NCBI RefSeq assembly: GCF_900129495.1 | Contig: NZ_FQVX01000001.1 | Span: 62,001 to 126,000, forward strand | Reading direction: 5' to 3' | DNA: 64,000 nt | DNA from: Geodermatophilus nigrescens | GTDB taxonomy: Bacteria > Actinomycetota > Actinomycetes > Mycobacteriales > Geodermatophilaceae | Shown: positions 8,201 through 18,070 of the stretch, one piece after another | Numbering within the stretch: the first letter of the stretch is position 1 | How the letters are laid out: each line of letters begins with the position of its first letter | The notes under the pieces: generated by a model | What the model saw: the letters and a program-made list of their open reading frames with translations, nothing else | What the model was told of the DNA's origin: nothing | The model's database searches: none | Position numbers and translations under genes: made by a program

Positions 8201-9006
8201 GGATCGCGGCGCTCGGCGACAGCACCAGCTGCGGTGAGGGCGTGGGCGTGCGGGTGCCGGCCGCCCGCACCTGGCCGTCGGTGCTCGCCGCCGCCGTCCC
8301 GGGCGCCCGGCTGACCCTGCTGGCGCGGGCCGGCGCCCGCGTCCGCGACGTGCGCGCCGTCCAGCTGGCCGCCGCCGTCGCCGGGGCGCCCGACGTGGCC
8401 ACCGTGCTGGCCGGGCTCAACGACGTCTCGCGGTCCGACCTGGACCCCGCCGCGCTGGCCGACGACCTCGCCGCCGTCGTGTCCGGGCTGCGCGCCGCCG
8501 GGGCCGTCGTCGTGCTCGGCCGGCTGCACGACCCCGGCGGCATGCTGCCGCTGCCGGCGGGGGTGCGGGCCGCCGTCCGCGGGCGGGTGGCCGCGGTCAA
8601 CGCCGCGGTCGACGCGGCGGCGGCCGGCCCTGGCGTGCTGGTGCTGGACCTCGCGGCCGTGCCGTCCGTGACCGACCGCCGGGCCTGGGACGTCGACCGG
8701 CTGCACCCCACCGCGGCGCTGCACGCCCGGATCGCCGTGGTCGCGGGCGCGCTGCTCACCGCGGCCGGCCTGCCGGTCCGCGTGCCGGACGCGCCGTCGC
8801 TGCCGCCGGCGCCCGGCCCGGCGCGCGAGCTCGCCTGGGCGGCGCGTCACGGGCTGCCGTGGGTGGCCGCGCACCTCACCGGCCTGGTGGCCGCCGCCCG
8901 CGAGCTGGGCGACCCCCGGGCCGTCGGCTCCGCCCGCGACGGCGAGCCGGCGCCCGGCGGAGGACCCGGGGTCTGGCCCGCGCGGGTCAGCGGCGGGAGC
9001 GCTTGA
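8197..9006 (+). CDS. SGNH/GDSL-type hydrolase
   Basis: 269-aa SGNH-fold esterase or acyl hydrolase. The nucleophile block is ALGDSTSCGEGVG (Ser at about residue 9, GDST variant of GDSL), the oxyanion Gly/Asn are in VLAGLNDVSRSDL, and the Asp-x-x-His pair is DRLHPTAALHARIA. No signal peptide is seen, so it acts in the cytoplasm. It starts inside the stop of the preceding glycosyltransferase (ATGA) and probably removes or edits acyl groups on the same glycan or glycolipid. Its last 20 bp overlap the 3' end of the convergent GGDEF gene. Confidence 0.83.
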   Translation: MRIAALGDSTSCGEGVGVRVPAARTWPSVLAAAVPGARLTLLARAGARVRDVRAVQLAAAVAGAPDVATVLAGLNDVSRSDLDPAALADDLAAVVSGLRAAGAVVVLGRLHDPGGMLPLPAGVRAAVRGRVAAVNAAVDAAAAGPGVLVLDLAAVPSVTDRRAWDVDRLHPTAALHARIAVVAGALLTAAGLPVRVPDAPSLPPAPGPARELAWAARHGLPWVAAHLTGLVAAARELGDPRAVGSARDGEPAPGGGPGVWPARVSGGSA

Positions 9007-10417
9007 CCGCGTACATCGCGGCGTCGGCCCGGCTGAGCAGGGTGTCGGGGGTGTCGCCGGCGCGGGAGAGCGCCAGGCCGGTGCTCGAGCGCAGCGCCGG
9101 GCCGCCGTCGGCGGGGGAGGCGAGCGCGGCGGACAGCCGCTCGGCGAGCCCGCGCGCGGCCGCCTCCGTCGCCGTGCCGGGGCACAGGACGACGAACTCG
9201 TCGCCGCCGATGCGGGCCACCGTGTCGCCCGGGCGGACGACGGAGGTCAGCGCGGCGGCCATCCGCACCAGCGCGGCGTCGCCCGCGGCGTGGCCGAGGG
9301 TGTCGTTGACCTGCTTGAACCCGTCGAGGTCGCAGTAGAGGACCGCCGCGGGGAGCCCCTCGCGCTCCTGCACCCGCAGCGCCTGCTCCGTGCGGTCGAG
9401 CAGCAGCGCCCGGTTGGGCAGGCCGGTGAGGGCGTCGTGCAGGGCGGCCTCGCGCAGCCGGGCCTCCAGCTCGACCTGCGCGGTCACGTCCATCATCGCC
9501 ACGACCGCGCCGGTGGGGCGGCCGGCGTCGTCGCGGATCCGCGTCCCCGACGCGCGGAGCACGCGCAGCGGGTGCCCGGGCAGGTCGATGGCCATGTGCG
9601 CGTCGCGCACCCGGTCCTCGGTGTAGACGCGGGCGAGCGGCACCTCCGCCAGCGCCAGCCGGCGGCCGTCGGGGGTGCAGAGCCCGAAGCGCTCGACGAC
9701 GTCCTCGGTGAGTTCCGCGCCGGCCACCTGGTCGGCGTGCTCCTCGGGCAGGCCGTGCCACTGCCGGCCGAGCCGGTTGAACAGGGTGATCCGCCCGTCG
9801 GCGTCCGCGGCCACGACCCCGACCGGCAGCGCCTCGAGCAGCGCCCGCGTGAAGGCCTCCGACCGCGCCGCGTGCGACGCCGCGGCCTGCGCCTGGTCGC
9901 GGTCGGCGGCGCGGGCGGCGGCGAGGACGGCGAGCTGCCGCGCCTGGCGGCGGCGCTGGAACAGGGCGACGACGACGCCGGCGAGGTCGGCCAGCCGGTC
10001 GCCGGCGTCGGCCGGGAAGGCGTGCGGGGCGGTGTCGAAGACGCACAGCGTGCCGACCGCCAGCCCGTCGACGAGCAACGGCGCGCTCGCGTAGGCGCGC
10101 ACCGACGACCGCCGGCCGTCCACCCACGGGTTGTCCGCGTAGCGGGGGTCGGTCGAGAGGTCCGCGTACACCCGCACGCGCGGGCCCTCGGCGGTCATCG
10201 TCGCGCACAGCGACTCCTCGGCCGGCGAGGAGCAGCCCGGGAAGCCGTGCGGCACGAGCTGGTGCTGCTCGCAGGCGTCGAGCAGGTTGAGCGTCGCGCA
10301 CGGCACCCCGGTGACCGCGGCGGCCACCCGTACGACGGCGGCGAGCTCGGCGTCGCGGCCGAGCTCGGCGAGGTCGAGGGCGCCGGTGGCGCGGTCGGGG
10401 GTCGTGGTCGTGCTCAT
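8987..10417 (-). CDS. Diguanylate cyclase, GAF-PAS-GGDEF
   Basis: 476-aa soluble c-di-GMP synthase. An N-terminal GAF domain (about 25-155: FDTAPHAFPADAGDRLADLA end block) is followed by a PAS domain (about 188-315: ALLEALPVGVVAADADGRI) and a GGDEF domain (about 328-476). The active site RIGGDEFVVL (G404-F408) is intact, and the allosteric I-site RPGD (395-398) sits exactly five residues before it, so activity with product inhibition is expected. There is no membrane segment, so the signal is cytoplasmic; the GAF ligand is unknown. It is convergent with the SGNH hydrolase gene, overlapping it by 20 bp. Confidence 0.92.
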   Translation of the reverse strand: MSTTTTPDRATGALDLAELGRDAELAAVVRVAAAVTGVPCATLNLLDACEQHQLVPHGFPGCSSPAEESLCATMTAEGPRVRVYADLSTDPRYADNPWVDGRRSSVRAYASAPLLVDGLAVGTLCVFDTAPHAFPADAGDRLADLAGVVVALFQRRRQARQLAVLAAARAADRDQAQAAASHAARSEAFTRALLEALPVGVVAADADGRITLFNRLGRQWHGLPEEHADQVAGAELTEDVVERFGLCTPDGRRLALAEVPLARVYTEDRVRDAHMAIDLPGHPLRVLRASGTRIRDDAGRPTGAVVAMMDVTAQVELEARLREAALHDALTGLPNRALLLDRTEQALRVQEREGLPAAVLYCDLDGFKQVNDTLGHAAGDAALVRMAAALTSVVRPGDTVARIGGDEFVVLCPGTATEAAARGLAERLSAALASPADGGPALRSSTGLALSRAGDTPDTLLSRADAAMYAVKRSRR

Positions 10418-10478: not shown

Positions 10479-11078
10479 TCAGGTGAGGACGCGGACGGTC
10501 TCCACGGCGGCCACGACGGCGAAGACGACGAACAGCACCGCGGCCGCGCGGCGGATGAGCGCCACCGGCAGCCGGTCGGCCAGCGCCTTGCCGAGGAACA
10601 CCGCGAGCGCGGAGACGGTGAGCAGCGCCGCCCACGCCCCGATGAAGACCGACACGGGGGAGTCCAGGCGCGCGGCCAGGCCCGCGGTGGCCAGCTGCGA
10701 CAGGTCGCCCCACTCGGCGGCGAACAGCACGCCGAAGGAGACCGCGGCCGCCCGCAGGAACGACGTCCGCTCCCGGGTGTCGGCGGCCTCCCCGCCGTCC
10801 TCGGGGCCCTCCGCCGCGCTGCGCCACAGCAGCACCGCGCCGACGAGGAACAGCACCGCCACGACCCCGCTGACCAGGGCCTGGGGGAGGAGCGACAGCA
10901 GGCTGCCGGCGGTCACCGCGATGGCCACCTGCAGGCCGAAGGCGGTGCCCACGCCGACGAACACCGGCAGCGGCGGGAACCGGGTGGCGAGCACCAGGCT
11001 GGCGAACAGCGTCTTGTCCGGCAGCTCCACCGGCAGGACGAGGACGAACGCCGTCGCGACGACGGACAGGACGATCAC
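10479..11078 (-). CDS. TMEM165/GDT1 family (UPF0016) Mn2+/Ca2+ transporter
   Basis: 199-aa six-helix membrane protein with the two duplicated signature motifs of the family: ELPDKTLFASLVLATR (first E-x-G/P-D-K-[ST] repeat) and AEWGDLSQLATAGLAAR (second E-x-G-D-[KRS]-[ST] repeat). Bacterial members such as MneA of Vibrio export manganese. The start is GTG 11078, with GGAAGAGAG upstream. An earlier in-frame GTG at 11171 is rejected because that stretch is the conserved 3' part of a yybP-ykoY riboswitch. A Mn2+ riboswitch upstream supports Mn2+ export as its role. Confidence 0.9.
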   Translation of the reverse strand: MIVLSVVATAFVLVLPVELPDKTLFASLVLATRFPPLPVFVGVGTAFGLQVAIAVTAGSLLSLLPQALVSGVVAVLFLVGAVLLWRSAAEGPEDGGEAADTRERTSFLRAAAVSFGVLFAAEWGDLSQLATAGLAARLDSPVSVFIGAWAALLTVSALAVFLGKALADRLPVALIRRAAAVLFVVFAVVAAVETVRVLT

Positions 11079-11148
11079 GGGCTGGCTCTCTTCCGCTCGG
11101 CACCGCCGGGCGGGGGCGCACGCCTCCGACCGGCAGCGCACACGACTG

Positions 11149-11270
11149 CTCCGGTCGAAGGTCTCGCCCACCCGCGCTCGCGCACGGGCCCGCTGACCGG
11201 GCCGCCCCCGGGGGACGTGCCAGCGTGTCGACCAGCGGACGGGGGGCTACTCCCCTTCTCGGCCGCAGAG
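11149..11270 (-). ncRNA. yybP-ykoY manganese riboswitch
   Basis: Read on the minus strand, the region has the conserved segments of the Mn2+-sensing yybP-ykoY riboswitch in order: GGGGAGTAGC (11255-11246), GTCGACACGCTGGC (about 11231-11218), a GC-rich arm GGCCCGG...GCGGGCC, and the 3' signature GCGAGACCTTCGACC (11167-11153). The flanks CTCtgcGGcCGA and TCGaCCgGAG can close helix P1. Mn2+ binding normally turns on expression of exporters; the downstream gene belongs to the GDT1 family, a common partner of this riboswitch. No U-tract terminator is visible, so control of translation through the downstream ribosome-binding site is the likelier mechanism. Confidence 0.88.
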
Positions 11271-11401: not shown

Positions 11402-12526
11402 GTGGCCTGGACCGCGCTGTCCGGCCTCGCCCCGGTGTACCCGCTCTACGCGCTGCTGTTCCTGGACACCGGGCTGACCGAGCCGCAGGTCTCCGCGCTG
11501 TTCGCGCTGTGGTCGCTCACCGCGCTTGTGGCCGAGGTGCCCACCGGCGTGCTCGCCGACCGCTGGTCCCGCCGCGGCGCGCTCGTGCTCGGCGGCGTCC
11601 TCGAGGCCGTCGGCTTCGTGCTGTGGACCGTCACGCCGGGCCTGGCCGGCTTCGCCGCCGGCTTCGTCGTCTGGGGCGTGGGCGGCGCGCTGGTGTCCGG
11701 CGCGGCCGAGGCCCTGGTCTACGACGGGCTGGCCGCGGCCGGCGCCGAGGACGCCTACGTCCGGGTCAACGGCGCCATGACCGCGGCCGAGCTGCTCGTG
11801 CAGGTGCCCACCGCCGTGCTGGCCGGCCTCCTCGTGCAGGCCGGCGGCTACGCGCTGGTCGGCTGGGTGAGCGTCGGCACCTGCCTGGCCGCCGCCGGGC
11901 TCGCCACACGCTTCCCCGAGCCGCCGCGCACCGCCGACGACGACGGGCCGGAGGTCCCGCTGCGGACCGCCGTCGGGACGGCGCTGCGCCGCCCGGGGGT
12001 GCTGCTCGCGGTGGCCGCCGTCGCGCTGCTCGGCTCGCTCGACGCGATCGAGGAGTACTTCCCGCTCATGGCCCGCGACCAGGGCGTGCCGACGGCGGTG
12101 GTGCCGGCCGCGGTCCTCGTCGTCGCCCTGACCGGTGCCGCGGGCGCGGCGCTCGCCGGCCGGGCGGCGCGGCTGCCCTCGCGGGCGTTGCCGCTGCTGC
12201 TGCTCGCCTCGGCGGTGCTGCTCGCCGCCGGCGCGCTGGCCGACGGCCTCCCCGCCGTCGCCGCCGTCGCGGTGTCCTACGGCCTGTACCTGGCGGTGCT
12301 GGTCGTGGGGGAGGCCCGGCTGCAGGAGCGGCTGCCCGCCGCCGTCCGCGCGACGGTCACCTCGGTGGCGGGGCTGGGCATCGAGCTCGGCGCGCTGCTG
12401 GTGTTCGCCGCCTGGGCCCTCGACGGCGCCCTCGCCGTGGCGGTCCTCTTCGCGTTGGTCGCGGCCGTCACATCGTCGGCCTTCCGGCCGACACCGCGGC
12501 CAGGTGCCGTCCCCGACCGGCGCTGA
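11402..12526 (+). CDS. MFS transporter
   Basis: 374-aa major facilitator superfamily protein with about 11-12 hydrophobic helices. The loop 2-3 signature is EVPTGVLADRWSRRGALVLG (a D-x-x-x-R-R/K variant), placed after helix 2 as expected. Helix 1 begins only a few residues after the chosen GTG 11402, and no ribosome-binding site precedes it. The nearest promoter-like box leads to a GTG at 11333 that is followed by an in-frame TGA, so the true start is uncertain. Substrate is unknown; the family mostly exports drugs or takes up small metabolites. It converges on the GGDEF-LarB gene. Confidence 0.82.
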   Translation: MAWTALSGLAPVYPLYALLFLDTGLTEPQVSALFALWSLTALVAEVPTGVLADRWSRRGALVLGGVLEAVGFVLWTVTPGLAGFAAGFVVWGVGGALVSGAAEALVYDGLAAAGAEDAYVRVNGAMTAAELLVQVPTAVLAGLLVQAGGYALVGWVSVGTCLAAAGLATRFPEPPRTADDDGPEVPLRTAVGTALRRPGVLLAVAAVALLGSLDAIEEYFPLMARDQGVPTAVVPAAVLVVALTGAAGAALAGRAARLPSRALPLLLLASAVLLAAGALADGLPAVAAVAVSYGLYLAVLVVGEARLQERLPAAVRATVTSVAGLGIELGALLVFAAWALDGALAVAVLFALVAAVTSSAFRPTPRPGAVPDRR

Positions 12527-12582
12527 GCCCTGCCACGCCGTCCCGGCCGGGAGCCTCCGGCCCCGCGGCCGGTCCGCCGTCC

Positions 12583-15312
12583 CTACCTCCCGGTCCTCCG
12601 GGCGATGCGGGCGGCGAAGACGCCGGCGGCGTGGCCGTTGTCGATGTTGCTGACGACGACGCCCGGCGACGCCGAGTTGAGCATCGTGAGCAGCGAGCCG
12701 AAGCCGCCGAAGGAGCCCGGCTGCCCGGTCGAGGTGGGCACCGCGACGATCGGCACGTCCGTCATCGCTCCGACCGTGCCGGCCAGCGAGGCGTCGAGGC
12801 CCGCGACCACGACCAGGCAGTCGACGTCGTCGAGCAGCGTCCGGTCGGTGAGCAGCGGCCGCAGCCGGCTGCCGCCGACGTCGTCGACCCGCACGACCTC
12901 GGTGCCGGTCACCCGGGCGACGAACGCGGCCTCGGCGGCCACCGACGCGTCGGCGGTGCTGGCGCACAGCACGCCCACCCGCCCGACCGGCTCGGGCACC
13001 GGGCCGACGGCGGCCGACATCGCCGCGGCGTCGACTGTGGAGCCCGGGTGCGCGGACGCCAGCGCGACGAGCGTGTCGGCGCTCGCGCGCACCACCAGCG
13101 CCGGGCGGTCGGGGTGCGCGTCGCGGGTCTCGCGGACCAGCGCGAGCACCTGCTCGGTGGAGCGGCCCACGCCCCAGATGACGTCGGGCTCGGCCGGGCG
13201 CGCGGGCGGCGCCGCGGGCCCGGGCGCCAGCGCCGGCTCACCCGGGCCGCCGAGCGACAGCGGCGGGTCGGCCGGCCGGGCGGGCGCCGCGAGCAGCGCG
13301 GCGAAGCCGCCGACGGGGTCCAGCGGCGACGTCTGCACCGGCGGCACCTGCACCGACGCCGTCGCGGGCCCGGCGGGCGGCGCCTGCTCGGCCTCCGGGG
13401 CGGCGTCGGGCGCGCGGGTCTGGGTGACCGCCGAGAGGCGGACGACGCGGTCGCGGCCGCTGCGCTTGGCGTCGTAGAGGACGCCGTCGGCCGCGGCGAA
13501 CAGCGTGCGCCGGTCGTCGCCGCGGGTGGCGGAGGCGATGCCCACGCTGATCGTCACCGGCAGGGTCAGGCCCAGCGCGGCCCAGTCGTGGGCGGCCACC
13601 GCGCGGCGCACCCGCTCCAGGGCCCGCTCGGCCTGCTCGGCGGTGGTGTCGGGCAGCAGGACGACGAACTCGTCGCCGGCCCACCGGCACACCTCGTCGG
13701 TGTCGCGGCAGCCGGCGATGAGCAGCTCGGCGACCGCCCGCAGCACCGCGTCGCCGCCGGGGTGGCCGACGGCGTCGTTGATGGCCTTGAACCGGTCGAC
13801 GTCGACGACGGCCAGCGCGGGCGTGGTGCCGGCGCCGAGCAGCCCGTCGAGGCGGGCCTCGGCGTAGCGCCGGTTCGGCAGGTGGGTGAGCGGGTCCTCG
13901 TAGGCCTGCCGGCGCAGCTGCCCGGCGGCGCGCTCGTTCTCCAGCAGGCTCTTGCGCCGGCCGAACAGCTCCACCCAGCGGGTGCGCCGCTCGTCGACCC
14001 GGTCGAGCTCGTCGGCGAGGTAGGCCTGCAGGTAGGGCAGCGCCCGGCCGGCGTCGTCGAGCTCGGCGTGCAGCGTGCACAGCTCGCGCAGCGCCGACCG
14101 CCGCAGCCGGGGCAGGCCGTGCTCGGTGGCCAGCGCCAGCGCCTTGGCCAGCTGCTGGTCGGCGCCGCGGCCGTCGTCCTGGCGGCGCAGCGCGCGGCCC
14201 AGCGCCAGCAGCGCGGAGGCCAGCAGCGCGCGGTCGCCGCGGGCGCTGGTGGTGCGGACGGCGGCGCGCAGCGGGCCGGTGGCCGCGGCGTGCTCGCCCA
14301 GGCCGACCAGCGCCCAGCCGTGCACCACCTGCGCGGCCACGACGCCCTCGGCGTCGGGTGGCAGCTGGGCCAGCGCCCGCTCGGCCAGCCCGCGCGCCTC
14401 GGCGAACCGCGGCAGCGCGGCGTCGGGGTCGCCGTCGTCGAGCAGCGCCTCGCCCAGCTCCGCGCACAGCTCACCGAGGCAGGTGGCCGCGCGGGCGGCG
14501 AGCACGTCGGGGTCGACGCCGGCGTCGAGCACGCCCGCGTCGGCGGCCGCGGCGGCGGTCTCCAGCGCGCGGCGCTGGTAGTCCAGGGCCAGCGGCATCA
14601 GCTCGAGGTCGGCCAGGACGCCGGCGAGGGTGCCCAGGGTGTCGACGAGCAGGGCGCTCGGGGGCAGCGCGGGGTCGAGCAGGCTGGCCGCCTCGACCGC
14701 CTCGTCCATCGCCGCGTCGATCCGGCGGGACAGCAGCTCGATGCGGGCGTGCCGGGCGAGGCCCGCGGCGCGCTGCAGCTCGTCGTCGCTGGCGTCGAAG
14801 GCGGCCTTGGCCGAGCGCACGAGGGCGATCGCCTCGGCGGCGTGCGCGGCCGAGGCCGACCGCGGGTCGCCGTCGCCGCCGTCGAGCAGCCCGGCGACGC
14901 CGGCGTGCAGGTCGAGGGACTCGGTGGCCTCGGGAGCGTCGAGCGGCTCGCCGACCAGCGTGAAGCCGGCCACGCGCAGCCGGCGCACCAGCAGCTCGGC
15001 GCGCAGGGTGTCGGCCCAGGCTCGGCCGAGGGTGGGCGCGTCGTCGCGGTCGTCGGACCCGGGGGCGCCGGCCTCGGCGGGGGCTGCGTAGGGCGTCGAG
15101 GAGTCGACGACCGACAGCAGGCGCTCGGCGTCGTCGAGCTGCCAGTTGGCGAGGGCGGCGGTCACCCGGTGGTGCAGGGCTCCCGGTGGCACCAGGGCAC
15201 TGTGCACGCCGTCGGGGCCGGATCCGGGCATCCCGGCGCGGGCGCGTCGTGTGGCGGAGGTCCCGTCGCCCGTTCCGTCACTGCCGTCCCAGCTGGGCCG
15301 GGCGCCGGTCAC
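12583..15312 (-). CDS. TPR-GGDEF-LarB-like fusion protein
   Basis: 909-aa protein with three parts. Residues about 40-455 are Ala/Leu-rich helical TPR-like repeats. Residues about 465-630 are a GGDEF domain whose active-site motif is RWAGDEFVVL (A545-F549; first Gly is Ala, a common variant) with an I-site RDTD five residues before it. After a Pro/Ala linker (about 630-707), residues about 708-905 match LarB, the PurE-superfamily carboxylase of nickel-pincer-nucleotide synthesis: VIWGVGRSTEQVLALV, VGVLCASTADASVAAEAAF, VVVAGLDASLAGTVGAM, VAVPTSTGQPGSFGGFGSLL and VVSNIDNGHAAG. Typical LarB reads MLNSC at the site of its covalent Cys; here it is MLNSA (Ala881), so LarB chemistry is doubtful. GTG 15312 overlaps the upstream stop (GTGA). 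Function is inferred: a c-di-GMP enzyme with a nucleotide-binding LarB-like module. Confidence 0.88.
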   Translation of the reverse strand: MTGARPSWDGSDGTGDGTSATRRARAGMPGSGPDGVHSALVPPGALHHRVTAALANWQLDDAERLLSVVDSSTPYAAPAEAGAPGSDDRDDAPTLGRAWADTLRAELLVRRLRVAGFTLVGEPLDAPEATESLDLHAGVAGLLDGGDGDPRSASAAHAAEAIALVRSAKAAFDASDDELQRAAGLARHARIELLSRRIDAAMDEAVEAASLLDPALPPSALLVDTLGTLAGVLADLELMPLALDYQRRALETAAAAADAGVLDAGVDPDVLAARAATCLGELCAELGEALLDDGDPDAALPRFAEARGLAERALAQLPPDAEGVVAAQVVHGWALVGLGEHAAATGPLRAAVRTTSARGDRALLASALLALGRALRRQDDGRGADQQLAKALALATEHGLPRLRRSALRELCTLHAELDDAGRALPYLQAYLADELDRVDERRTRWVELFGRRKSLLENERAAGQLRRQAYEDPLTHLPNRRYAEARLDGLLGAGTTPALAVVDVDRFKAINDAVGHPGGDAVLRAVAELLIAGCRDTDEVCRWAGDEFVVLLPDTTAEQAERALERVRRAVAAHDWAALGLTLPVTISVGIASATRGDDRRTLFAAADGVLYDAKRSGRDRVVRLSAVTQTRAPDAAPEAEQAPPAGPATASVQVPPVQTSPLDPVGGFAALLAAPARPADPPLSLGGPGEPALAPGPAAPPARPAEPDVIWGVGRSTEQVLALVRETRDAHPDRPALVVRASADTLVALASAHPGSTVDAAAMSAAVGPVPEPVGRVGVLCASTADASVAAEAAFVARVTGTEVVRVDDVGGSRLRPLLTDRTLLDDVDCLVVVAGLDASLAGTVGAMTDVPIVAVPTSTGQPGSFGGFGSLLTMLNSASPGVVVSNIDNGHAAGVFAARIARRTGR

Positions 15313-17027
15313 GGCGCGGCCTCCGGCGGGGCCTGGTCCCCGGCCGCGGTGCCGGCCCCGCCGTCACCGTCGACGAGTCCCGGCGCCCGCACCCGGTTGC
15401 GCCCGCCGCGCTTGGCGGAGAACAGGTGCAGGTCGGCGGTGTCGAACAGCGACCGCCAGCCGACCGGCACGGACCGGTCGTCGGCGGCGGCCGGGGCGGT
15501 GGCCACCCCGATGCTCACGGTGATCGGCTCGCTCAGCGGCAGGTCGGCCCAGTCCGCCTCGGCCACGGCGGCCCGCAGCCGCTCCACGGCGGCCAGCGCC
15601 TGCCCCTGGGTGGCCGCGGGGAGCACGACGAGGAACTCGTCGCCGGCCCACCGGTACACCTCGTCGCCGGCCCGGCTGTGCTCGCGCAGCAGCGCGGCGA
15701 CCCGGCGCAGCACCTCGTCGCCGTGGGTGTGCGAGGTGTCGTCGTTGACCTCCTTGAACCGGTCGACGTCGACGACGGCCAGCGACAGCGGCTCGGCGCC
15801 CAGCCGCAGCCCGGCCAGCCGGCGCTCGGCGCTGCGCCGGTTGCCCAGGCCCGTGAGCGGGTCCTCCAGCGCGTGCCGGCGCAGCACCGCGGCCTGCCGC
15901 TCGGCCTCGCGCAGCCGGCTGCGGCGGACGAACATCTCCGCCCACAGCTCCCGGCTGCGGGCGTGCGCGCGGCCGGTGTCGGAGCGGTAGGCGTCGAGCC
16001 AGTACAGGGCCTCGGCGGGCCGGCCCATCGCGGCGGTGGCCTGGCCGAGCTCGAGCAGGCACTGCCGGTAGCGGCGCCGGTCGGCGGTGGCGGCGAAGGC
16101 GCCCGCGGCGTCGACCAGCAGGCCGGCGGCCTCCTCGCCGCCCCCGCCGCCGCTGTGCTCCTGCGACAGCCGGGTGAGCAGCCGGGCCAGGGCCAGGTCG
16201 GCGTAGCCGCGCAGCCAGGTGCTGCCGCTGCGGTGCACCCGCCGGTGCACCGACCGCAGCGGGCCCAGCGCGTCGTCGGGCTCGCCGTGGCAGGACAGGG
16301 CCCAGGCCTGGACGACGTCGAGCTGGTCGGAGTCGTCGGGGTCGGGCTCGACCGCCAGCGCGCGGGCGTCGGAGGCGGCGGCGATCGCGGCGCCGGCCAG
16401 CTCGCGGGCGCGGGCGGCCTGCCCGCGGCGGCGCAGCGTCTGGGCGAGCTCGACCCGCTGCTGGGCGCACAGCCGCAGCAGCTGCCAGCGCTCGCCGAGG
16501 TCGGGCAGCCGCTCCGCCACCGCGCAGCCCCGCTCCGCCTGTGCGACGGCGAGCTCCTCGAGGTCGAGCGCGGTGAGGGTGAGCGAGAGCCACAGGTGCG
16601 CCTGGACCACCTCGGGTGAGGGGGTGCCCGCGGCGGGCTCGGCGGGCGCGAGCTGCTCGGTCAGCAGGCTGGCGTCGACGGCGAGCAGCATCGCCGCGTC
16701 GAGGCGGTCGGCGGTGGCCTCCACGTGCGCCAGGTAGGCCAGCACCAGCGCCGTGGACGCCGAGGGGGCGCAGGCGCCGAGCGCCTTGCGGGCCGCGGTC
16801 ACCCCGTCCGCGGCGGCGTCGCGGTCGCCGTCGAGCAGGGCGCGGCGGGCGGCCAGCGCCGCGCGCCAGGCGGCCCAGCGGGGCTCCGCGGCGGCGGCCA
16901 GCGCGGGCTCGGCGTCGTCGAGCCCGGCGCGGAAGGCCGCGTCGTCGTCGCGCCGGTCGGCGGCCAGCAGGAGCCGCAGCGCAGCCTCCAGGTGACCGTC
17001 AGTGACGGGAGGGGAGCCGGGGGTCAC
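15309..17027 (-). CDS. TPR-GGDEF protein, probable diguanylate cyclase
   Basis: 572-aa cytoplasmic protein. Residues about 10-370 are TPR-like helical repeats (e.g. LLELGQATAAMGRPAEALYWL), followed by a coiled linker and a GGDEF domain at about 385-545. The active site is RWAGDEFLVVLP (A461-F465), with an I-site RAGD at 452-455 and the substrate-binding [10 protein letters not shown]. It is paralogous to the following gene over both TPR and GGDEF parts but lacks a LarB-like tail. Its stop overlaps the GTG of the downstream fusion gene, so the two are translationally coupled and may act together. A short Pro/Ala/Gly tail ends the protein. Confidence 0.88.
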   Translation of the reverse strand: MTPGSPPVTDGHLEAALRLLLAADRRDDDAAFRAGLDDAEPALAAAAEPRWAAWRAALAARRALLDGDRDAAADGVTAARKALGACAPSASTALVLAYLAHVEATADRLDAAMLLAVDASLLTEQLAPAEPAAGTPSPEVVQAHLWLSLTLTALDLEELAVAQAERGCAVAERLPDLGERWQLLRLCAQQRVELAQTLRRRGQAARARELAGAAIAAASDARALAVEPDPDDSDQLDVVQAWALSCHGEPDDALGPLRSVHRRVHRSGSTWLRGYADLALARLLTRLSQEHSGGGGGEEAAGLLVDAAGAFAATADRRRYRQCLLELGQATAAMGRPAEALYWLDAYRSDTGRAHARSRELWAEMFVRRSRLREAERQAAVLRRHALEDPLTGLGNRRSAERRLAGLRLGAEPLSLAVVDVDRFKEVNDDTSHTHGDEVLRRVAALLREHSRAGDEVYRWAGDEFLVVLPAATQGQALAAVERLRAAVAEADWADLPLSEPITVSIGVATAPAAADDRSVPVGWRSLFDTADLHLFSAKRGGRNRVRAPGLVDGDGGAGTAAGDQAPPEAAP

Positions 17028-17134: not shown

Positions 17135-18070
17135 GTGCTCCAGACGCCTCCGACGCGGTTCGCCTATCTCGGGCCCGAGGGTACCTTCGCCGAGGCGGCG
17201 CTCAGCAGCGCCGTACCCCCCGGCGAGGGGGTGCGGCAGCCCGTCGCCAGCGTCCCGGCGGCGCTGGCCGCCGTCCGGGCGGGCGAGGCGGACGCCGCCC
17301 TGGTGCCGTTCGAGAACTCGGTCGAGGGCTCGGTCCCGACCACCATGGACGGCCTGGCCGACGGCGACCCGCTGGTGGTCGTGCGCGAGGTCTTCCTCAC
17401 CGTGGCCTTCGTCCTCGCCGCCCGTCCGGGCACCGCCCTCGCCGACGTGCGGACCGTCGTCAGCCACCCGCACGCCCTCGCGCAGACCGCGCGCACGGTG
17501 GCCGGGCTGCTGCCCGACGTCCCCGCGCTGCCCGCCTCCTCCACCGCGGTCGCCGCCCGCGCGGTCGCCGACGGCGAGTACGACGCCGCGGTCTGCGCGC
17601 CGATCGCCGCCGAGCGCTACGGGCTGGTGCCGCTGGCCGAGGACGTCGCCGACCACCCCGGCGCCGTCACCCGCTTCGTCCTGGTGTCCCGGCCGGGCGC
17701 GCTGCCCGAGCCCACCGGCAACGACAAGACCTCGCTCGTGGTGGTCGTCGCCGACCGCACCGGCGCGCTGCTCGACGTGCTGCGCGAGTTCACCGTCCGC
17801 GGCATCAGCCTGACCCGGATCGAGTCCCGGCCCATCCGCGACCGGCTGTGGGTCTACTCCTTCTCCCTCGACTGCGAGGGGCACGTGGCCGAGGCGCGGG
17901 TGGGCGAGGCCCTGGCCGCGCTGCACCGGGTGAGCGAGGACGTGCGCTTCCTCGGCTCGTACCCGCGCGCCGACGGCCGCACCAACCGGCCGGTCCCCGG
18001 CGAGGCGGCCGACGCCGCGTTCACCGAGGCCGGCTCGTGGCTGGCGCGGCTGCGCGCCGGCGAGGTCTGA
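17135..18070 (+). CDS. pheA: Prephenate dehydratase
   Basis: 311-aa monofunctional prephenate dehydratase converting prephenate to phenylpyruvate in phenylalanine synthesis. The catalytic domain (about 8-190) starts FAYLGPEGTFAEAAL, has LVPFENSVEGSV, and ends with the catalytic VTRFVLVSR (TRF) motif. The C-terminal ACT domain (about 205-285) contains GNDKTSLVVVV, the regulatory GALLDVLREF and ESRP motifs that bind phenylalanine for feedback inhibition. No chorismate mutase domain is fused. Translation is probably leaderless. It stands alone between the convergent MMPL gene and the divergent GGDEF pair. Confidence 0.95.
   Translation: MLQTPPTRFAYLGPEGTFAEAALSSAVPPGEGVRQPVASVPAALAAVRAGEADAALVPFENSVEGSVPTTMDGLADGDPLVVVREVFLTVAFVLAARPGTALADVRTVVSHPHALAQTARTVAGLLPDVPALPASSTAVAARAVADGEYDAAVCAPIAAERYGLVPLAEDVADHPGAVTRFVLVSRPGALPEPTGNDKTSLVVVVADRTGALLDVLREFTVRGISLTRIESRPIRDRLWVYSFSLDCEGHVAEARVGEALAALHRVSEDVRFLGSYPRADGRTNRPVPGEAADAAFTEAGSWLARLRAGEV

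Follow-up and report, generated by a model that had tools for sequence, protein, structure and literature searches.

A GGDEF–LarB fusion protein of Geodermatophilaceae whose LarB-like domain lacks the catalytic cysteine

The gene described here stands closest to two known systems, the nickel-pincer enzyme LarB and the diguanylate cyclases. Sections of PMC11796402 and PMC9283937 describe how LarB, in nickel-pincer synthesis, carboxylates nicotinic acid adenine dinucleotide (NaAD) and releases adenosine monophosphate (AMP). Diguanylate cyclases (PF00990) include the AGDEF type, represented by VCA0965, which carries an RXXD site and, according to part of PMC3974145, makes cyclic di-GMP (c-di-GMP) in vitro. 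A 64,000-nucleotide stretch of Geodermatophilus nigrescens (contig NZ_FQVX01000001.1, positions 62,001 to 126,000; hereafter the window) holds a gene that combines a tetratricopeptide repeat (TPR)-like part, a GGDEF domain and a LarB-like domain in one protein. Among open-licence papers we found none that joins GGDEF with LarB or with AIR carboxylase, in accordance with a sequence-only reading of this DNA, which knew of no described fusion of c-di-GMP synthesis to LarB; excerpts of PMC7583248 and PMC8305020 contain nothing on LarB fusions.

With diguanylate cyclases, the protein shares a GGDEF domain well over the family cut-off, an RxxD I-site and the AGDEF motif. It differs from them in its additional C-terminal domain of LarB fold, a combination without precedent in the open-licence papers searched. 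With LarB (NF033503; PDB 7mj0-7mj2) it shares the full-length fold and descent from the larB of a pheA / larB-larC locus. Unlike LarB, however, the fused copy lacks Cys221 and Ser127, has His158 mostly replaced and scores under the family cut-off. It also forms the C-terminal domain of a cyclase, and is kept where the nickel-pincer pathway is absent. We have filed the window protein as a diguanylate cyclase of new domain layout and do not class it as LarB.

Domain composition and occurrence of the fusion

The fusion gene (12583..15312) lies on the minus strand and runs from 15312 to 12583, a strand that the sequence-only reading had left unstated while giving the coordinates correctly. It is a single open frame of 909 codons that starts with GTG and is followed by a stop, and it joins a TPR-like part, a GGDEF domain with an I-site and LarB, as had been proposed. 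AlphaFold2 predicts the N-terminal half (residues 37-460; 13933..15204, minus strand like all parts of this gene) to be an all-helical, TPR-like solenoid with a long final helix (predicted local distance difference test score, pLDDT, 83). TPR_7 matches this half with 16 bits, under the Pfam cut-off of 27.9. The best Foldseek matches of the model are the TPR proteins LGN/Pins and Rap, at low template modelling (TM) scores of no more than 0.45 by query length.

The GGDEF domain (470-622; 13447..13905) reaches 129.3 bits against Pfam PF00990, with a cut-off of 23.8. Both the GGDEF-type active site AGDEF (545-549) and the RxxD I-site RDTD (536-539) are present in the window protein (13666..13707). 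Among 93 family genomes with the fusion in one frame, the active site reads AGDEF in 88 and AGDEY in five, and the I-site RDTD in 85, RDSD in five and RGND in three. The intact AGDEF and I-site, together with the VCA0965 precedent, suggest that the domain makes c-di-GMP. A likely receiver in these bacteria is RsiG, since the twin-motif form of this c-di-GMP-dependent anti-sigma factor is carried by 16 of 16 surveyed Geodermatophilaceae species, as stated in a portion of PMC8325347.

A variable, Pro/Ala-rich linker (632-704; 13201..13419; mean identity 43%) leads to the LarB-like domain (705-905; 12598..13200). The profile search placed residues 705-905 against positions 8-208 of the 209 in NCBIfam LarB NF033503 (E 3e-45), which is a LarB match over the full length, although its 154.4 bits fall under the curated cut-off of 175. 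Two other fusions, in G090 and G093, pass that cut-off. The best sequence matches in the PDB are LarB entries 8soq and 7mj0, at about 1e-33. Structure prediction agrees: the domain as modelled by AlphaFold2 (pLDDT 91) has the LarB fold, its Foldseek ranks 1-27 are all LarB chains, and it matches LarB crystal structures with TM scores of 0.80-0.87 by query length and 37-39% identity. The closest structures include LarB entries bound to AMP and to nicotinamide adenine dinucleotide (NAD).

The fold is related to that of PurE (AIR carboxylase, PF00731), and Pfam AIRC scores 41 bits over a cut-off of 30. An identity as PurE was nevertheless rejected: the NCBIfam purE score is only 27.6 bits, where the cut-off asks for 149.6, and a different gene of this genome, its likely PurE, matches AIRC strongly (212 bits).

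To survey the family, 112 Geodermatophilaceae genomes were scanned with a profile built from fused domains (alignment A1). A strong fusion-type match was found in 100 of them. Two more bring the genomes that hold this LarB type to 102: G107, whose fusion has deletions inside LarB, and G097, an incomplete genome with a fragment at a contig end. The locus was opened in each of the 102: 93 encode GGDEF and LarB in a single frame, two have them in two overlapping frames, and in seven the LarB part is cut by a contig end. An artefact of frame or sequencing is thus ruled out, and the linker, where a stop codon or frameshift had been considered as a way in which the fusion could prove false, is open in the window. 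G080 and nine genomes from genera g5, g6 and g7 (G066-G074) gave no match of the fusion type.

The closest named relative over the LarB domain is Geodermatophilus obscurus, with 95% identity. Named relatives with the fusion come from the genera Geodermatophilus, Modestobacter, Blastococcus, Klenkia, Goekera and Trujillonella. Of 78 named loci, 72 carry GGDEF and LarB in a single frame, and the remaining six begin at a contig end. A fusion-type LarB also occurs in a sequence titled 'UNVERIFIED_ORG: Bacillus sp. AZ43' (L155, SPQJ01000021.1), probably a misnamed Geodermatophilaceae genome. At L048 (G032) the frame is broken just ahead of GGDEF, which leaves the N-terminal half out of frame. Divergent fused LarBs with deletions around the former active site are found at L200, L201 and L209 (G005, G019 and G020) and at L208 (G107), and larC follows the fusion directly in all four.

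At the level of the order (298 genomes), 55 genomes outside the family matched, with up to 243.7 bits. Divergent fusions within the family score 228-244 bits, so fused and standalone domains are not separable by score alone. No GGDEF fusion was present in the 17 of these 55 order loci that were opened or in two Nocardioides loci; all 19 hold a standalone LarB with the cysteine and without GGDEF. A phylum-level search of 396 genomes, judged by score and not by loci, matched 256, and among the matches listed none besides the window's gene exceeds 152.4 bits. The fusion was not seen outside Geodermatophilaceae, which is not a claim that none exists there.

Active site and constraint in the fused domain

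Residues were compared between 93 distinct fused domains (loci up to L202) and 49 distinct standalone LarBs. Identical rows, the partial loci L164 and L175, L002 and 44 later loci were left out of the 93, and L208 (G107) was read by eye. We use the number Cys221 for what we take to be the catalytic cysteine of L. plantarum LarB, and it agrees with the chain numbering of 7mj0. A 2021 paper by Rankin et al. is said, by its title, to concern the role of this cysteine (a pyridine adduct).

The alignment bears out both replacements read from the sequence beforehand. Ala881 (12670..12672) stands opposite Cys221, in place of the cysteine of MLNSC, and STAD (785-788; 12949..12960) stands opposite the phosphate motif GTSD, with Ser127 replaced. 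Whether the cysteine is always lost in GGDEF-LarB proteins had also been raised: it is absent from all 93 fused domains (Ala 77, Ser 9, Thr 4, Gly 2, Pro 1) and present in 49/49 standalone LarBs, which rules out a one-off loss. The Ser127 column reads Gly in 47 fused domains, Ala in 44, Pro in one and a gap in one; Ala127 is also found in two of the 49 standalone LarBs. At His158 there is Arg in 76, His in nine and other residues in eight. With Cys221 and Ser127 lost and His158 mostly so, the published LarB chemistry via a cysteine adduct would be impossible for the fused domain.

Loss of catalysis has not meant loss of constraint. Ratios of nonsynonymous to synonymous substitution rates (dN/dS), estimated by the Nei-Gojobori method for 70 full-length sequences and rough in such high-GC genomes, have pairwise medians of 0.38 for the N-terminal part, 0.25 for GGDEF, 0.76 for the linker and 0.37 for LarB. 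For the LarB domain of the window against those of three close relatives, L104-L106, which probably correspond to the genomes G055, G041 and G042 that lack LarC, LarE and a standalone LarB, dN/dS is 0.15-0.16. Mean pairwise identity of the fused LarB is 74%, with 99% of positions aligned. These values indicate that the domain is under purifying selection and, given the low LarB dN/dS, therefore not simply decaying.

Where this constraint falls has changed. For a set of active-site loops that we chose from conserved LarB/PurE motifs, and not from ligand contacts, entropy in standalone LarBs is 0.27 bits versus 1.22 bits in the rest of the domain, whereas in the fusions it is 0.88 versus 0.66. 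The loop/rest ratio is 0.16, 0.08 and 0.13 in three matched standalone sets (row L014 being counted in two of them), against 1.06 in Modestobacter, 1.10 in Geodermatophilus and 1.35 in Blastococcus fusions. The N-terminal LarB subdomain behaves in the opposite way. In the standalone sets no other part varies as much (0.57-1.01 bits versus 0.25-0.56 in the rest of the core), and in the fusions the subdomain equals the core or betters it (0.20/0.17, 0.41/0.43 and 0.49/0.75).

Site by site, 30 positions are relaxed in the fusions, including 125-127, 155, 158-159, 204-206 and 221-222. Another 22 are newly constrained, and 14 of these lie in the N-terminal subdomain. Helix alpha-1 of the LarB domain (719-732; 13117..13158) has come under new constraint in the fusions. 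The fused LarB of G107 has lost the phosphate-loop motif and the stretch that follows, and retains the N-terminal subdomain and the rest. Relative constraint thus appears to have left the active-site loops and to have risen most in the N-terminal LarB subdomain. A conserved ligand pocket had been our own first expectation, and both the loop entropy and the relaxed sites came out against it.

Relaxed loops and a constrained N-terminal subdomain weaken the idea of an NaAD sensor and favour a module for assembly or docking. With about even confidence, we read the protein as a diguanylate cyclase with an exapted, catalytically dead C-terminal LarB that is used as such a module. In this mechanism, the TPR solenoid would take the input, probably a protein or peptide partner, the GGDEF domain would make c-di-GMP, and the LarB fold would serve not as an enzyme but for assembly or docking (or for allosteric control). 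PurE/LarB folds form oligomers, and GGDEF domains work as dimers, so an oligomeric LarB tail would set the pairing of the cyclase.

Several observations weigh against an assembly or docking role. Asp128 (92 of 93 fused domains), Glu134 (93) and Asp151 (92) are retained, as are Pro-Thr-Ser 199-201, Asp231 and Gly233 (93/93 each); of the latter, Thr200, Ser201 and Asp231 count here. Near-invariant polar pocket residues of this kind may exceed what a pure scaffold needs. The C-terminal helix is no sign of a new role, because it is conserved in fused and standalone LarBs alike. The gene is missing from G080, a 99% complete genome, and is split in the linker by a change of frame at L056 (G046) and L037 (G091), where GGDEF and LarB lie in overlapping frames through a true frameshift or a sequence error. 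The roughness of the dN/dS values and our own choice of the loop set count on the same side.

The main rival is a ligand sensor, in which the pocket of the dead LarB would have kept its ability to bind NaAD, NAD, AMP or some other nucleotide and would thereby gate the synthesis of c-di-GMP; we consider this possible though doubtful. It would draw on the intact fold, closest to LarB structures that include AMP- and NAD-bound ones, on the retained residues just listed, and on the basic residue 57, which is Lys in 49/49 standalone LarBs and Arg in 93/93 fusions. By their entry titles, LarB S127A variants were crystallised as complexes, and the 44 fusions with Ala127 carry this exchange naturally. 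NaAD and NAD are moreover independent of the lost lar genes. Yet the loops no longer stand out in conservation from the remainder of the domain, positions 125-127, 155, 158-159 and 204-206 vary, and the G107 copy has no phosphate motif. The proposal of the sequence-only reading that the dead LarB is 'binding-competent' for NaAD or NAD fared poorly on these grounds, as the loops have lost their extra conservation in the matched subsets too. Some pocket residues do persist, so that binding of some nucleotide is conceivable. That a LarB/PurE-fold pseudoenzyme, taken over in place, detects a pyridine or adenine nucleotide and links c-di-GMP to NAD metabolism family-wide is a tentative idea on which we would not rely; if true, c-di-GMP signalling would have gained an input of a new kind. 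Should the LarB domain control the cyclase, it would be an input or assembly domain absent from the c-di-GMP papers found.

Nickel-pincer genes and the remaining explanations

The sequence-only reading had noted no larC or larE in the window, and this extends to the whole genome, which has no LarC, no LarA, no standalone LarB and no LarE over the cut-off (best 8e-8). Across the 112 genomes, a standalone LarB over the cut-off is found in 73 (75 pass, two of them through the fusion) and LarE in 72, the two sets differing only in G100. LarC occurs in 82 and LarA in 35. Co-occurrence was counted over 100 fusion genomes (without G097 and G107) and over 81 of the 82 LarC genomes (without G073, which is in pieces and has no fusion). 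A standalone LarB is present in 62 of the 100 fusion genomes, while 28, the window's included, are without LarB, LarC and LarE. The persistence of the fusion in genomes lacking these genes indicates that it is INDEPENDENCE from the nickel-pincer pathway and has a different function. A LarB or AIRC match inside a GGDEF protein of Geodermatophilaceae does not imply nickel-pincer synthesis, a warning for annotation given that two fusions even pass the LarB cut-off.

Of the 72 fusion genomes with LarC, 61 have larC on the same strand no more than 4.8 kb behind the fusion (no more than 300 bases in 42), and 11 have it elsewhere. This arrangement could mean that the fusion is a regulator tied to the nickel-pincer pathway, acting with LarC, with another LarB or with pathway intermediates. 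We find this quite unlikely, as a remnant of the ancestral larB-larC operon would show just this order, which is the simplest explanation for it, and the fusion is kept in those 28 genomes. The case for a pathway role today, made from the adjacency of larC, is weakened by that ancestral order.

A new enzyme, in which a remodelled pocket runs another nucleotide reaction without the cysteine, is very improbable: Arg156 has been re-fixed in 89/93 fusions where 49/49 standalone LarBs have Gly, but the active-site loops largely drift, no conserved new nucleophile was seen there, and one copy lacks the loops altogether. Equally improbable is an idle and decaying LarB tail, for which the deletions in G107, G005, G019 and G020, the loss in G080 and the two split genes could speak, and against which stand a median dN/dS half that of the adjoining linker and the high identity and alignability of the domain.

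Some genomes of the family show further variation in these genes. In five nearly complete ones (G002, G011, G013, G015 and G018; e.g. L061), larC follows the fusion at a distance of 41 bases to 3.6 kb, and neither a standalone LarB nor LarE is found over the cut-off. Their LarC scores 312-362 bits versus about 400-446 in most others, and is possibly orphan or repurposed. G091 has two LarC genes and five LarB matches, of which one is partial. In many family genomes, standalone larB and larE adjoin each other convergently, away from larC.

Gene neighbourhood and descent of the locus

Directly upstream of the fusion lies a TPR-like-GGDEF paralogue (15309..17027, minus strand, 572 aa), whose stop overlaps the GTG start of the fusion gene by four bases (GTGA). 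It shares the layout through GGDEF, including AGDEF and RxxD, with about 42% identity, and differs in having no LarB domain. Beyond it stands pheA, encoding prephenate dehydratase (17135..18070, plus strand), a syntenic anchor that was found in 37 of 40 fusion loci; contig ends truncate the other three. The same 37/37 uncut loci carry a second GGDEF gene directly upstream of the fusion.

The gene order in fusion-bearing genera is pheA | TPR-GGDEF, TPR-GGDEF-LarB, larC, and the window keeps it minus larC. The larC site of many relatives is here a gap of 56 bases (12527..12582) between the fusion and a major facilitator superfamily transporter gene (11402..12526, plus strand). This flank is also found at L208 and L209, after larC. 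A GDT1-type cation antiporter gene (10479..11171, minus strand) forms a further syntenic flank, also present at L209 and weak at L208.

We compared these with 16 standalone loci from early-branching genera and other families (L203-L207, L183-L187 and L188-L193). In all 16, larC adjoins larB, and pheA is present in 12, the exceptions being L203 (a 5.6 kb contig), L187, L189 and L192. At L215, LarC was the sole query matched.

A quick-search tree of 65 LarB domains unites the 15 fusion rows in a single clade with full support (Shimodaira–Hasegawa-like approximate likelihood ratio test, SH-aLRT, 100), and independent fusions were rejected on this basis. This clade sits in a group (support 90) with the standalone LarBs L014 and L025 (g6, g7) and L183-L187, L190 and L192 (other families), its exact sister being an open fork. 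Standalone LarBs of fusion-bearing genomes fall in two other groups. The pairing with pheA is also seen at L188, L191 and L193, elsewhere in the tree, and is therefore probably an old locus order and not special to the fusion group.

Synteny shows an origin in which pheA / larB-larC became pheA / [TPR-GGDEF]-[TPR-GGDEF-LarB]-larC. In an ancestor of crown Geodermatophilaceae, a tandem TPR-GGDEF pair was placed between pheA and the larB-larC operon, and the second TPR-GGDEF gene was fused in frame to larB. The locus appears to be a clear example from nature of a metabolic enzyme recruited into signalling, for which the ancestral operon, the fusion, the loss of the catalytic cysteine and the missing parent pathway are all visible in present-day genomes.

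In genus g5 (G066 and G067; L210 and L211), larC lies beside pheA or the GDT1 gene with no larB found there, and LarB is on another contig, near LarE. In the window, a third cyclase-type gene, encoding a GAF-PAS-GGDEF protein of 476 aa, is located at 8987-10417 on the minus strand, which places three such genes within about 8 kb.

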